Part shown: positions 20,088 through 24,354 of the stretch, piece by piece
How positions within the stretch are numbered: position 1 is the stretch's first letter
How the letters are laid out: each line of letters opens with the position of its first letter
Assembly: GCF_030162935.1 (NCBI RefSeq)
Contig: NZ_JASAUZ010000073.1
Span: forward strand, 1 to 64,000
Origin: Comamonas halotolerans
Lineage (GTDB): Bacteria; Pseudomonadota; Gammaproteobacteria; Burkholderiales; Burkholderiaceae_C
Reading direction: 5' to 3'
Length of the DNA stretch: 64,000 bases
Program-made: the position numbers and the translations under genes
Notes under the pieces: model-generated
What the model was told of the DNA's origin: nothing
Database searches by the model: none
The model's input: only the letters and a program-made list of their open reading frames with translations

Positions 20088-21044
20088 GTGCACATGTTGT
20101 TGCCACGTGATGCTCTAGAGCGCTACCAAGCGCTCATTTACTTTGCCGCCGTTGCTTTGGGGGCAGGGTTGGCCGTCTATGTGCAGGGCACGCAAGCGTT
20201 GGAGCCGCTGATTAATCCGTCGTTGGCGTTTATGCTGTACGTCACTTTTTTGCAAGTGCCGCTGTCCACTTTGCGAGCTGCATTCTTGCAGCGGCGTTTT
20301 TTGCTGGCACTGCTGCTCACCAATTTTGTCGCTATCCCGCTGCTGGTCTGGGGGCTGAGTCAGTTTCTGCCGCAGGAAGGCATGCTGCGCTTTGGCGTTC
20401 TGCTGGTCTTATTGGCACCGTGCATTGACTATGTGGTGACCTTTGCCCACATGGGTAAGGCCGATGCAAGTTTGCTGCTGGCATCCACCCCGGTTTTGTT
20501 GCTCACGCAGATTGCGTTGTTGCCGATTTATTTGGGATATATGTTGGGTGCGGAGGCAGCAGCCTTGGTGCAAGTGAGGCCTTTTATGGATGCCCTGCTT
20601 TGGCTTGTTGCCCTGCCATTGCTGCTTGCGTTGGTCACACAGAAATGGGCTGCACGATCCCCGGTGGGTGTGCGTGTCAGTGTGTATCTGGGTTTTTTGC
20701 CCGTGCCTGCCACGGCTTTGGTGTTGTTTGTTGTGGTGGCTTCGGTGGTGCCCCAACTTGAAGCTGCCAGTGGGGTTGCATGGCATGTGCTGCCGGTATA
20801 TGTGGCTTTTGCGGTGCTGGCTCCTGCGCTGGCTTGGGCTGTGGCCAAGGCCTTCAAGCTCCAGGTCGGTGCCGTGCGTGCAGTGACGTTCAGCGCAAGC
20901 ACGCGCAATTCATTGGTGGTTTTGCCTTTGGCGCTGGCAGTACCAGGCGCGATCCCAGTGCTGCCCGCCGTGATTGTGGCGCAAACATTGGTGGAGCTGG
21001 TGAGCGAGCTTATCTATATCAAGCTTATTCCCAAGCTGCGCTGA
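20088..21044 (+). CDS. ACR3/bile-acid symporter superfamily transporter (arsenic-resistance type)
   Basis: Membrane protein of 318 aa with about ten hydrophobic segments, related to the ACR3 arsenite exporters. Blocks such as NPSLAFMLYVTFLQVPL, LAPCIDYVVTFAHMGKADA (a Cys in the position used by ACR3) and FSASTRNSLVVLPLAL support this. No arsR or arsC is adjacent, so a role in arsenic export is inferred. Two in-frame ATGs (20088 and 20094) are possible starts. Confidence 0.75.
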   Translation: MHMLLPRDALERYQALIYFAAVALGAGLAVYVQGTQALEPLINPSLAFMLYVTFLQVPLSTLRAAFLQRRFLLALLLTNFVAIPLLVWGLSQFLPQEGMLRFGVLLVLLAPCIDYVVTFAHMGKADASLLLASTPVLLLTQIALLPIYLGYMLGAEAAALVQVRPFMDALLWLVALPLLLALVTQKWAARSPVGVRVSVYLGFLPVPATALVLFVVVASVVPQLEAASGVAWHVLPVYVAFAVLAPALAWAVAKAFKLQVGAVRAVTFSASTRNSLVVLPLALAVPGAIPVLPAVIVAQTLVELVSELIYIKLIPKLR

Positions 21045-21154
21045 AACCTTGGCTACCGCAAAAAGGCAGAAATGCCCAAAAGAAGTTGATGCTACGCAAG
21101 GAGCGGTGGGATGTATGCATCTTTGTGGGCCAAAGAAATCCCTGAAGAGAAGTT

Positions 21155-21247
21155 GACAACCCTTACCTCGGCACTGGTTTCACAGTTAGGGCTGCTTGGT
21201 TCCCCACCTGACCCGGTTGGCTGCTTCCCCATGCGAGGGGGGCTGTC
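21155..21247 (-). ncRNA. ffs: Signal recognition particle 4.5S RNA
   Basis: On the minus strand the SRP helix 8 core is clear: GGTC AGG TGG, GGAA tetraloop, CCA AGCA GCC (around 21188-21211). The distal ends pair: GACAGCCC at the 5' end (21247-21240) with GGGTTGTC at the 3' end (21162-21155). A perfect -10 TATAAT (21260-21255) lies 7 nt before the proposed 5' end. In many betaproteobacteria ffs lies next to dnaX, as here. The 3' end may extend a few nucleotides; no strong terminator is visible. Confidence 0.9.
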
Positions 21248-21254
21248 AGCAGCG

Positions 21255-21260
21255 ATTATA
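21255..21260 (-). promoter_or_regulatory. ffs -10 element
   Basis: Perfect TATAAT on the minus strand, 7 nt upstream of the predicted 4.5S RNA 5' end. No good -35 is seen at 17 bp. Confidence 0.7.
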
Positions 21261-21335
21261 GGTGTGTTTATGGTGCGCGTGAGTGACGTGCACAGATAAA
21301 CACGCCTACGCTGAGGTCGCCTTGCCCACAACCCG

Positions 21336-21341
21336 TAGAAT
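21336..21341 (+). promoter_or_regulatory. dnaX -10-like element
   Basis: TAGAAT lies 8 nt before the dnaX ATG with no purine-rich ribosome site between. If used, transcription would start at or next to the start codon, giving a leaderless mRNA. Confidence 0.45.
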
Positions 21342-21349
21342 TCGCCCTT

Positions 21350-23281
21350 ATGTCTTATCTCGTGCTCGCCCGTAAATACCGTCCCCGCAACTTTGCCGAA
21401 ATGGTGGGGCAGGAGCACGTCGTGCAGGCTCTGGGCAATGCGCTCACACAGCAGCGCCTGCATCATGCATATCTGTTTACCGGTACGCGCGGTGTTGGTA
21501 AGACCACGGTGTCGCGCATTTTTGCCAAGTCGGTCAACTGTACGGGTGTTGATGGACAAGGTGGAATCACTGCCGAGCCTTGTGGTGTTTGTCCAGCTTG
21601 TACTGAAATTGATAGTGGTCGCTTCCCCGACTATATTGAGCTGGATGCGGCATCCAACCGTGGTGTGGATGAGGTGCAAAGCTTGCTGGAGCAGGCGGTG
21701 TACAAACCGGTGCAGGGGCGCTTCAAGGTCTTCATGATCGACGAGGTGCACATGCTCACCAATACCGCGTTCAACGCCATGTTGAAAACGCTGGAGGAGC
21801 CACCGGAGTATTTGAAGTTTGTGCTGGCCACAACCGATCCGCAGAAGGTACCTGTGACAGTGCTTTCGCGTTGCCTGCAATTCAATTTGCGTCCTATGGC
21901 GCCAGAGACGGTATTTGAGCACCTGACTCAGGTGTTGGCCAAAGAAAACATTCCTGCAGAGCCACAGGCGCTGAAACTGCTGGCACGTGGTGCACGTGGC
22001 TCCATGCGCGATGCTTTGTCGCTGACCGATCAGGCGATTGCCTTCGGTTGTGGTGAGCTGAAAGAGACTTCGGTGCGCCAGATGCTGGGCAGTGTGGATC
22101 GCAGCTATGTTTTCCGGCTGATTGCAGCCCTGGCTCAGGGCGATGGTCGTGCGGTGGTGGAGACTGTGGATGCACTGCGCCACAACGGTGTGTCAGCGGC
22201 ATCGACCTTGGAAGAAATCGCTTCTGTGCTGCAGCGAATGGCTGTGCTGCAAGCAGTGCCAGATATGGCTGCCGCATTGGATGCAGCGGATCCAGATGCG
22301 ATGGTCATGGCTGATCTGGCGCAGACCATGGCTGCGGATGAAACGCAGCTGCTCTACAGCATTAGTTTGCATGGCCGTCAAGAACTGGGTTTGGCTCCGG
22401 ATGAATATGCAGCGCTGACGATGGCGCTGCTACGCTTGCTGGCTTTCAAGCCGCAAGCCTCATTACAGACTGGGGCAGTGGCACCAGCGGCTGAAAAAAA
22501 AACACTGAAGCTTCCTGATTTACCTGCGGCCACGGAGCAAGCTGAGCCACAGCCACAGCCACAGCCACAGCCACAGCCACAGCCACAGCCACAGCCACAG
22601 CCACAGCCACAGCCACAGCCACAGCCACAGCCACAGATTGCTGCGGTGACTGTCGCTCCTGCGCCAGAGAAGGACGCCATTGCGAAATCCAAAGAGCCGG
22701 CACCTGCTGAGCAAGACATGCCTCCACCATGGGAGGACTTGCCGCCCGAGGCGTTGGAGTCAGAGCCTACTTACGACAGCAGTGAGCCTCCGGTGTGGAA
22801 TGATGCACCTGTAGATGAGGAGCCGAGCGTCGTCGCTTCTGCTCCGGTTGTGCAGCGCAAACCGGTGGTGCAAGAAGCAAGTGCAGAGCTGGTGACCACC
22901 CCGTTGGGCGATATCTGGCATGCCATCGTCACGCAACTGGACGAAGCACAGGCCATCTCCGCGCTGGTGCGCGAGCTGGCCATGCAGTCCCAGCTGGTAG
23001 CGCAAGACGGTGGTGTGTGGTCGCTGCGGGTGCAACGCACCTCTCTCAATCAAACCATGCCGCGCGAGCGATTGCTAAAGGCTCTGACGGGCATCGCTGC
23101 ATGCACCAGCCTGCATGTGGAAAATGGTTCAGTGTCGGACACTCCAGCGCTGCGCAACAAAGCTCATGCCGAAGCACGACAAAAGCAGGCAGAAGCAATT
23201 GTTATGAACGATCCTCACGTGCAGCATCTACAGCAAACCTTAGGCGCTACCATCGTGCCCGGTAGTATTCGCCCGGTATAG
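21350..23281 (+). CDS. dnaX: DNA polymerase III tau/gamma subunit
   Basis: Clamp-loader ATPase and replisome organiser, 643 aa in full (tau). Domains I-III (about residues 1-375) show Walker [10 protein letters not shown], a zinc site (CxxxxxCGVCPAC), DEVHMLT and the sensor SRC motif. A low-complexity linker (about 380-440) contains an A9 run at codons 382-385 and a (Pro-Gln)15 tract at residues 400-429. The C-terminal tau region follows (about 510-643). Either alternative frame at the A9 run meets a stop within a few codons, so a gamma-like product of about 385-389 aa is predicted. It is divergent from ffs and upstream of ybaB-recR, the classical cluster. Confidence 0.95.
22494..22502 (+). 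other. A9 slippery run in dnaX
   Basis: Nine consecutive A residues read as GAA AAA AAA ACA in frame. A -1 shift (or one extra A in the mRNA) reads on to TGA at 22516-22518. A +1 shift (or one A lost) reads on to TGA at 22506-22508. It lies just after the end of the ATPase domains. Confidence 0.7.
22547..22636 (+). repeat. (CCACAG)15 tandem hexanucleotide repeat in dnaX
   Basis: Fifteen perfect copies of CCACAG encode (Pro-Gln)15 in the linker before the C-terminal tau domain. The 6-bp unit keeps the frame, so copy-number changes would alter linker length only. Confidence 0.95.
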
Positions 23282-23363
23282 CTTGAACAAAGGCCGGGGC
23301 ATGCCAAGTCGTGGCACTATTGGCCCCAATTGATTTTTAAGTGACAAACAAAGGAAACCCAAC

Positions 23364-23696
23364 ATGTTCAACAAAGGACAACTCGCTGGCCTGATGAAGC
23401 AAGCCCAAGCCATGCAGGACAACCTGAAGAAGGCGCAGGAAGAACTGGGCAACGTCGAGGTTGAAGGCGAATCCGGCGCTGGTTTGGTCAAAGTGGTGAT
23501 GACCTGCAAACACGATGTCAAGCGCATTACCATCGACCCCAGCTTGCTGAGTGAAGACAAAGACATGCTGGAAGACTTGGTGGCTGCTGCATTCAACGCG
23601 GCAGTGCGCAAGGCAGAAGAAACTTCCAACGAAAAAATGTCCAAGCTGACTGCTGGTATGCCAGGTTTGCCAGGCGGCATGAAGTTCCCCTTCTGA
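23364..23696 (+). CDS. ybaB: YbaB/EbfC family nucleoid-associated protein
   Basis: Small DNA-binding protein of 110 aa with the typical start [28 protein letters not shown] and the [23 protein letters not shown] core. Family members form dimers that bind and compact DNA. It lies between dnaX and recR, the conserved dnaX-ybaB-recR order. A perfect 14-bp palindrome (23704-23717) and a strong terminator follow, so recR may need some readthrough or its own promoter. Confidence 0.94.
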
Positions 23697-23720
23697 TTTT
23701 TAGGGCACAACGTTGTGCGA

Positions 23721-23763: not shown

Positions 23764-24354
23764 ATGTCAGATCTTCAACCGCTGGAACCGCTGATTCAGG
23801 CTCTGCGTCGCTTGCCGGGAGTTGGTGTGAAATCCGCGCAGCGCATGGCTTTTCATCTGATGCAGCGCGATCAAGATGGCGCCCGCGTGCTCTCTCGTGC
23901 TTTGATGGAAGCCGTTGACTCCGTGCAGCATTGCACACGATGCAACACATTCACGCACGATGCGGTATGTCCTATCTGTCAGGATACAGGGCGCGATGCT
24001 GCGCGTCTGTGCGTCGTGGAGACGCCGGCCGATTTGGCGGCCATGGAGCGCACGGGTGCCTACACTGGTTACTATTTTGTATTGATGGGGCGTATCTCCC
24101 CCATGGATGGGGTGGGCGCCAAAGATATTGGCTTGCCGGCCTTGCTGCAGCGTGCATTGGATGGTGTGGTGCAGGAAGTCATTCTTGCCACCAGCTTCAC
24201 AACGGAAGGCGAAGCGACAGCGCATGCGGTGACCGAGCTGATGCAGGGGCGCAATATTCAGGTCACGCGTCTAGCACGAGGGGTGCCGGTTGGCAGTGAG
24301 CTGGAGTATGTGGACCTCGGAACAATTGCGCATGCGCTGGTAGAGCGTCGATAA
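23764..24354 (+). CDS. recR: Recombination mediator protein RecR
   Basis: RecFOR-pathway protein that helps load RecA at gaps, 196 aa. Helix-hairpin-helix segment [16 protein letters not shown], a four-Cys zinc finger (CTRCNTF and CPIC), and a Toprim domain beginning [14 protein letters not shown]. The C-terminus ends [13 protein letters not shown] ribosome site is not obvious between the preceding terminator and ATG 23764. Confidence 0.95.

Follow-up and report, generated by a model that had tools for sequence, protein, structure and literature searches.

The window, meaning the whole 64,000-nucleotide stretch of Comamonas halotolerans DNA analysed here, contains the gene dnaX, downstream of which ybaB (23364-23696) and then recR (23764-24354) are found (Pfam). 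Immediately 5′ of dnaX, on the opposite strand, lies a small bacterial SRP RNA gene (21152-21247, minus strand; Rfam RF00169, 62.5 bits versus a gathering score of 40). Within dnaX, a run of nine adenines (A9) is closely followed by a stop codon in each of the two alternative frames. The features of the gene are the following:

21350-23281, plus strand: dnaX, full-length tau-type product of 643 aa and 69.4 kDa (NCBIfam dnaX_nterm, 414.9 bits; Pfam gamma/tau domains)
21350-22462, plus strand: clamp-loader part, domains I-III, aa 1-371, retained in the predicted gamma (Pfam; E. coli alignment)
22494-22502, plus strand: A9 run, T9 in the template, predicted slippage site (sequence; conservation in genus and family)
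22495-22501, plus strand: in-phase A_AAA_AAA heptamer within A9, with a possible ribosomal contribution (sequence)
22506-22508, plus strand: TGA in the +1 frame (one A lost, as in an A8 transcript, or a +1 shift)
22516-22518, plus strand: TGA in the -1 frame (one A gained, as in an A10 transcript, or a -1 shift)
22545-22636, plus strand: tandem array of 15.3 six-base units, Pro-Gln repeat of the tau linker (tandem-repeat search)
22907-23263, plus strand: tau-only domain V, Pfam DNA_pol3_tau_5, aa 520-638, absent from the predicted gamma (Pfam)

In this gene the run is read GAA (from 22493) AAA AAA ACA. A previous sequence-only reading, whose span of 22493-22518 begins with the G preceding A9 and takes in the whole -1 stop, had described an A9 with an A-AAA-AAA heptamer in this reading, and the description is correct in the sequence; an in-phase A_AAA_AAG does not occur in the window dnaX, its heptamer being A_AAA_AAA. 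The two truncated products which it had predicted are also recovered by translation: an added A or a -1 shift leads to a protein of 389 aa and 42.05 kDa ending in EKKNTEAS, and a lost A or a +1 shift to one of 385 aa and 41.69 kDa ending in EKKH. As for its claim that the truncated product would contain exactly the clamp-loader domains, Pfam domain III of DnaX ends at aa 371, residues 1-372 of the query align to the E. coli gamma/tau clamp-loader chains, and the cut falls approximately 10 residues past both, in agreement with it. The short form would therefore be a clamp loader minus the tau-only parts. The Pro-Gln array, a perfect repeat and the sole tandem repeat in the window, is located 3′ of both alternative stops; since its unit is of six bases, the gain or loss of units preserves the frame.

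Neither strand of the window has an A9 other than that of dnaX, and dinucleotide shuffles lead to an expectation of 0.70. Over the 4.05 Mb of the genome, A9 is matched 23 times, at 22 places; these 22 places were inspected and all but five minus-strand loci were resolved. The count in the window is near the shuffle expectation, and the argument depends on comparison.

Conservation of the run and of its two stops

Checking the run and the stops in related genera had been proposed in the sequence-only reading, and they prove to be conserved. In a genus set formed by Comamonas and its allies, dnaX was readable in 50 of 53 genomes (G027, G032 and G037 gave no match to the front part of the protein, and the second dnaX copy of G002 was left out). 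The A9 run is found in the same phase, at residues 369-388, in 49 of these 50 genes, and consists of exactly nine adenines in all 49 run-bearing ones. The family draw comprised 120 genomes, nearly all of them one per genus, and 115 dnaX rows were counted, with G120 and G143 (no match at the threshold), G119 and G155 (fragments) and G047 (a second Comamonas) left out. An A run is present in 67 of the 115 rows, being exactly A9 in 65, A8 in one (L082) and A10 in another (L143); among the 48 run-less rows, 46 have no run of five or more A's beyond residue 341. In a set of named loci, which overlaps the other sets and in which 79 of 80 loci were counted (L211 was left out), 76/79 have exactly A9 and the remaining three are all Polaromonas.

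On a DnaX tree built with a quick method from the front 368 residues of 127 rows, the A9 label requires 5 changes, against a mean of 42 when the labels are shuffled. Among the 67 run-bearing rows, all but L159 (66 rows) group together in a 70-row clade with a support of 98, so that 66/70 rows of this main clade carry the run, and the stops in both frames are conserved. Neither A9 nor A_AAA_AAG occurs in L016, L167 and L176, which belong to the A9 clade or to the genus. Four other species congeneric with L176 were read: L365 has A9, and the remaining three lack any run of six or more A's. Such a run is also missing from all four congeners of L167 that were read (L350, L360, L364 and L366). Altogether, 46 of the 115 family rows have neither the run nor the A_AAA_AAG cassette described below; since 48 of 115 genera are run-less and only two of them (L069 and L164) have the cassette, gamma by either route seems to be dispensable family-wide.

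Beyond the family, 42 of 97 genomes from the same order were read, and three of the 42 have same-phase runs: A9 at residue 519 in L087, A9 at residue 385 in L199, and A10 at residue 428 in L205. A -1 stop is near in all three and a +1 stop only in L205; these are possibly independent cases. Two further order-mates, L103 and L108, have a long A run in another phase. The draw from the class gave 72 DnaX matches in 114 genomes, the best with 62% identity to E. coli DnaX and none from a close enteric. Among the best 30 of these 72 matches, 29 of which were read (L320 was left out), same-phase runs of at least eight A's are found in two, namely L307 (A8) and L315 (40.7% GC, with two A8 and one A9).

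The nucleotides of the run appear to be maintained as such. Elsewhere in the 67 run-bearing family genes, AAG and GAG are the commoner codons for Lys and Glu; AAA accounts for 344 of 984 Lys codons (35%), and GAA for 38% of the Glu codons. When synonymous codons were redrawn according to the usage of each individual gene, leaving the protein unchanged, A9 was present in a mean of 5.8 of the 67 genes (maximum 12), being lost in 91% of cases, versus 66/67 genes in which at least nine A's are observed; these rows were selected for a run of at least seven, and the unselected comparison is that of the 66/70 clade rows and the 49/50 genus members. Codon usage and resampling thus indicate a constraint on codon choice and not on the protein, and, as judged from the compared genes, the conservation of A9 is far above chance. 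Among the 65 A9 rows all nine columns are invariant, as follows from the choice of rows; the columns upstream of the G that precedes the run mostly hold less than 1 bit, the 5′ flank being variable. Of the columns 3′ of the run, those that form the +1 stop (9 and 11-14) hold 1.0-1.9 bits. The two outer A's are invariant even though they lie outside A_AAA_AAA, and shorter runs are nearly absent (one A8 in 67).

The stops are similarly constrained. A +1 stop is located within three codons in 62 of the 67 run-bearing genera, and a -1 stop within eight codons in 63. Within eight codons, the frequencies are 97% for the +1 and 94% for the -1 frame, against 16% and 16% elsewhere in the same genes. 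With the protein fixed, resampling gives the +1 stop within three codons in 43/67 (maximum 53), so that a large share of it follows from the protein sequence after the run, and the -1 stop within eight codons in only 14/67 (maximum 23). By this resampling, both stops are more frequent than the protein sequence requires. Linker positions in the 48 run-less genera have a +1 stop within three codons in 4% of cases, a -1 stop within eight in 4%, and both within eight in 0.4%.

Stimulatory elements and the A_AAA_AAG cassette

In E. coli-type frameshifting genes, the slippery heptamer is accompanied by a Shine-Dalgarno (SD)-like element, and the E. coli gene (NC_000913.3, L291) and L298 were used as positive controls. 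In the A9 genes, SD-like pairing upstream of the run, measured with the anti-SD hexamer, is not above the same-gene background over 67 genera (p 0.80), and the fold z-scores for a downstream hairpin do not differ from those of other places in the same genes (67 genera, p 0.29). The median SD pairing is -2.3 kcal/mol in A9 genes, -6.6 in A_AAA_AAG genes and -6.3 in E. coli by the same calculation. The window dnaX taken alone has a GGGG upstream of A9 with moderate SD pairing (-4.7 kcal/mol), an element which the group lacks. Rfam includes a dnaX frameshift element family, and no match to it was obtained in 20900-23700 at E values up to 1. An upstream hairpin was also considered as a stimulator of slippage and was rejected, there being no enrichment over 67 genera (p 0.55).

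Two nested lineages within the A9 clade have a different arrangement. Where A9 would be expected, 13 relatives carry a cassette composed of an SD-like element of the GGGAG type, a spacing of 13-14 bases, an in-phase A_AAA_AAG and a -1 stop. Eight of these rows group with Polaromonas (L069, L345, L348, L349, L352, L238, L247 and L251; support 100/99) and five belong to a second genus (L164, L358, L359, L361 and L363). As to their origin, two come from the family draw (L069 and L164), three from the named set, and eight were targeted from the same two genera. All 13 show strong SD-like pairing and have a -1 stop within eight codons, and only two have a +1 stop within three, compared to 62/67 A-run genes (Fisher p 3e-8, a value that is too small because the rows are related). 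A pattern search for the spacer plus A_AAA_AAG, within one mismatch, in 399 family genomes gave nine matches, of which seven are in the two cassette genera and two (G130 and G091) do not coincide with any dnaX that was read; the spacers of L345, L349 and L352, of the Polaromonas type, are more diverged and were missed by this search. In L298, an unrelated member of the class, an E. coli-like SD element and A_AAA_AAG are found at residue 372, with a -1 stop immediately after.

The sequence-only reading had held that relatives interrupting the run with AAG codons would speak against it. Such relatives do exist, in the form of these 13 rows, and all 13 carry the E. coli-type cassette instead. In a large clade of the family, gamma production by programmed slippage was probably ancestral, at least one lineage (Polaromonas and the second genus) having switched to a -1 frameshift nearby and several having lost both. 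The tree splits the cassette rows into two clades; a single clade is not rejected (p-AU 0.343, with the bootstrap unsettled), and therefore one or two switches might have taken place. Common descent or transfer is plausible because the cassette spacers are similar, and the distribution may be compatible with transfer, common descent and convergence alike.

Proposed transcriptional slippage, its alternatives and known systems

What is observed is the A9 run with its phase and exact length, the conservation of the run throughout the clade, and the stops in two frames. Slippage at the site, its efficiency, and the production and use of gamma are inferred. The A9 of dnaX is very probably a selected, programmed site of transcriptional slippage yielding a gamma-like DnaX beside tau. 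According to this proposal, RNA polymerase would slip on the T9 template and generate a mixed pool of mRNAs. Those with nine A's, or nine plus or minus a multiple of three (e.g., A12), would be translated into the 643-aa tau, and those with A8, A10, A11 and so on would enter another frame, reach a near stop and give a gamma-like DnaX with a length of 385 or 389 aa. This protein would keep the domains for clamp-loader ATPase activity and oligomerisation but would be devoid of the linker and of the C-terminal alpha-binding domain.

It is unlikely that ribosomes produce gamma instead, through a programmed -1 frameshift at A_AAA_AAA, and that the +1 stop and the additional A's are incidental. Such a mechanism would agree with the in-phase heptamer inside A9, with the -1 stop within eight codons in 63/67 genes and with the presence of the E. 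coli-type cassette in relatives of the same family. However, nine A's are fixed where only seven are needed, the +1 stop goes beyond protein constraint (62 versus 43 expected and a maximum of 53), SD-like elements and hairpins are not enriched, and the family's own heptamer-type cases look different, having the A_AAA_AAG cassette. Moreover, a section of PMC5009743 reports that, in E. coli, A_AAA_AAA is far less prone to shifting than A_AAA_AAG. A ribosomal -1 shift needs only the -1 stop and two-way slippage needs both, so that the contrast between A9 and cassette genes favours transcriptional slippage. Since A_AAA_AAA is also able to shift ribosomes, the mechanism might nonetheless be a mixed one.

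Conservation of a linker motif, E-K-K-T/S, with the A's as a by-product, is a very improbable explanation. The run does code for Glu-Lys-Lys in 66/67 genes, and Thr or Ser mostly comes next; but AAG and GAG are the commoner codons elsewhere, and protein-fixed resampling of these run-selected rows loses A9 in 91% of cases. Only four of the 70 clade rows are run-less, and of these L069 and L164 have AAA AAG as part of the frameshift cassette and L167 and L176 lack any Glu-Lys-Lys. The residue preceding Glu is also variable, and GAG AAG AAG, which would have favoured such a motif, is found here in none of the rows inspected, the run-less rows outside the A9 clade being unaligned for the motif. 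A contingency locus, in which replication slippage would alter the length of the DNA run between cells (phase variation), is hardly credible. Mononucleotide runs are indeed prone to mutation, yet there are exactly nine A's in 65 of 67 run-bearing genera and in all 49 run-bearing genus members, and the gene is that of the clamp loader, whose loss of tau is expected to be lethal. Equally hard to credit is the chance retention of a functionless run: about 0.7 A9 per window is expected, but the tests of conservation, of synonymous sites and of stops in two frames contradict it, as does the clustering on the tree (5 changes versus 42).

Transcriptional slippage at dnaX has a precedent in Thermus thermophilus, in which, according to sections of two articles, it occurs at an A9 and each alternative frame has a stop (PMC1088944, PMC5009743). 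The window gene is similar in that the sense strand of one uninterrupted tau ORF carries A9, with near stops in both frames, and in its short clamp-loader form, which is here predicted from sequence. It differs in the position of the run, at about 60% of the ORF here and at seven-eighths in Thermus in the account consulted (PMC1088944), and in belonging to an unrelated family. The RNA-DNA hybrid in Thermus RNA polymerase is given as 9-10 bp in a section of PMC5009743, and the nine base pairs of the run are about the length of the hybrid in RNA polymerase. With E. coli dnaX the gene shares the order dnaX-ybaB-recR, the retention of domains I-III and the near -1 stop. Unlike the A_AAA_AAG of E. 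coli, the heptamer here is A_AAA_AAA within A9, and neither an SD-like element nor a hairpin is conserved around it. A near +1 stop is conserved here; that of E. coli dnaX lies 11-12 codons on.

Other bacteria obtain the two DnaX forms differently. Antonov et al. (2013) described dnaX genes formed by two ORFs, with A10 and similar runs, and proposed poly-A slippage for them in the portion consulted (PMC3711429); in those genes the slip is needed for tau, while here it would be needed for gamma. In Caulobacter crescentus gamma arises by proteolysis, as mentioned in a section of PMC5009743, that is, a short DnaX from one gene as here but at a different step of expression. The same portion of PMC3711429 lists the dnaX entries of Recode-2 as Escherichia, Neisseria, Salmonella and Vibrio, in addition to its own two-ORF cluster. 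A 2012 review, in the section seen here, considers that bacteria beyond the enterobacteria and Thermus mostly lack dnaX frameshift signatures and perhaps have no gamma (PMC3290774). In the open-licence literature searched, we found no published report of dnaX slippage in Comamonadaceae or of the Polaromonas switch. The kind of slippage is already known from Thermus, and its proposed wide occurrence in Comamonadaceae and the apparent switch of mechanism appear to be new.

A strongly selected signal in 66 rows of a 70-genus clade is evidence that gamma is worth keeping. A 2005 survey of genes with A9 or T9 omitted the truncation cases as hard to judge comparatively, as stated in a section of PMC1088944, and the test of stops in two frames can judge such cases. 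The apparent exchange of slippage and frameshifting within one family also offers a direct route to testing why cells pick either. If the proposal is true, the family would represent a natural series in which RNA polymerase or the ribosome is swapped as the setter of the tau:gamma ratio, with the product kept.

A relation to the tRNA-Lys complement was also considered, since a section of a review ties slippage in Thermus to the presence of both tRNA-Lys types (PMC5009743). The genome of the window has one UUU gene and three CUU genes, which suits the idea, but it fails over 27 genomes and was rejected. These were searched with a pattern allowing up to two mismatches, which diverged tRNAs could escape. 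Both types are found in 8 of 11 A-run genomes (UUU only in the other three), in 5/5 Polaromonas-type A_AAA_AAG genomes and in 6/7 genomes with neither signal. By the same pattern, all four genomes of the second A_AAA_AAG genus (G079, G415, G496 and G563) have UUU only, CUU not being found in any of them.
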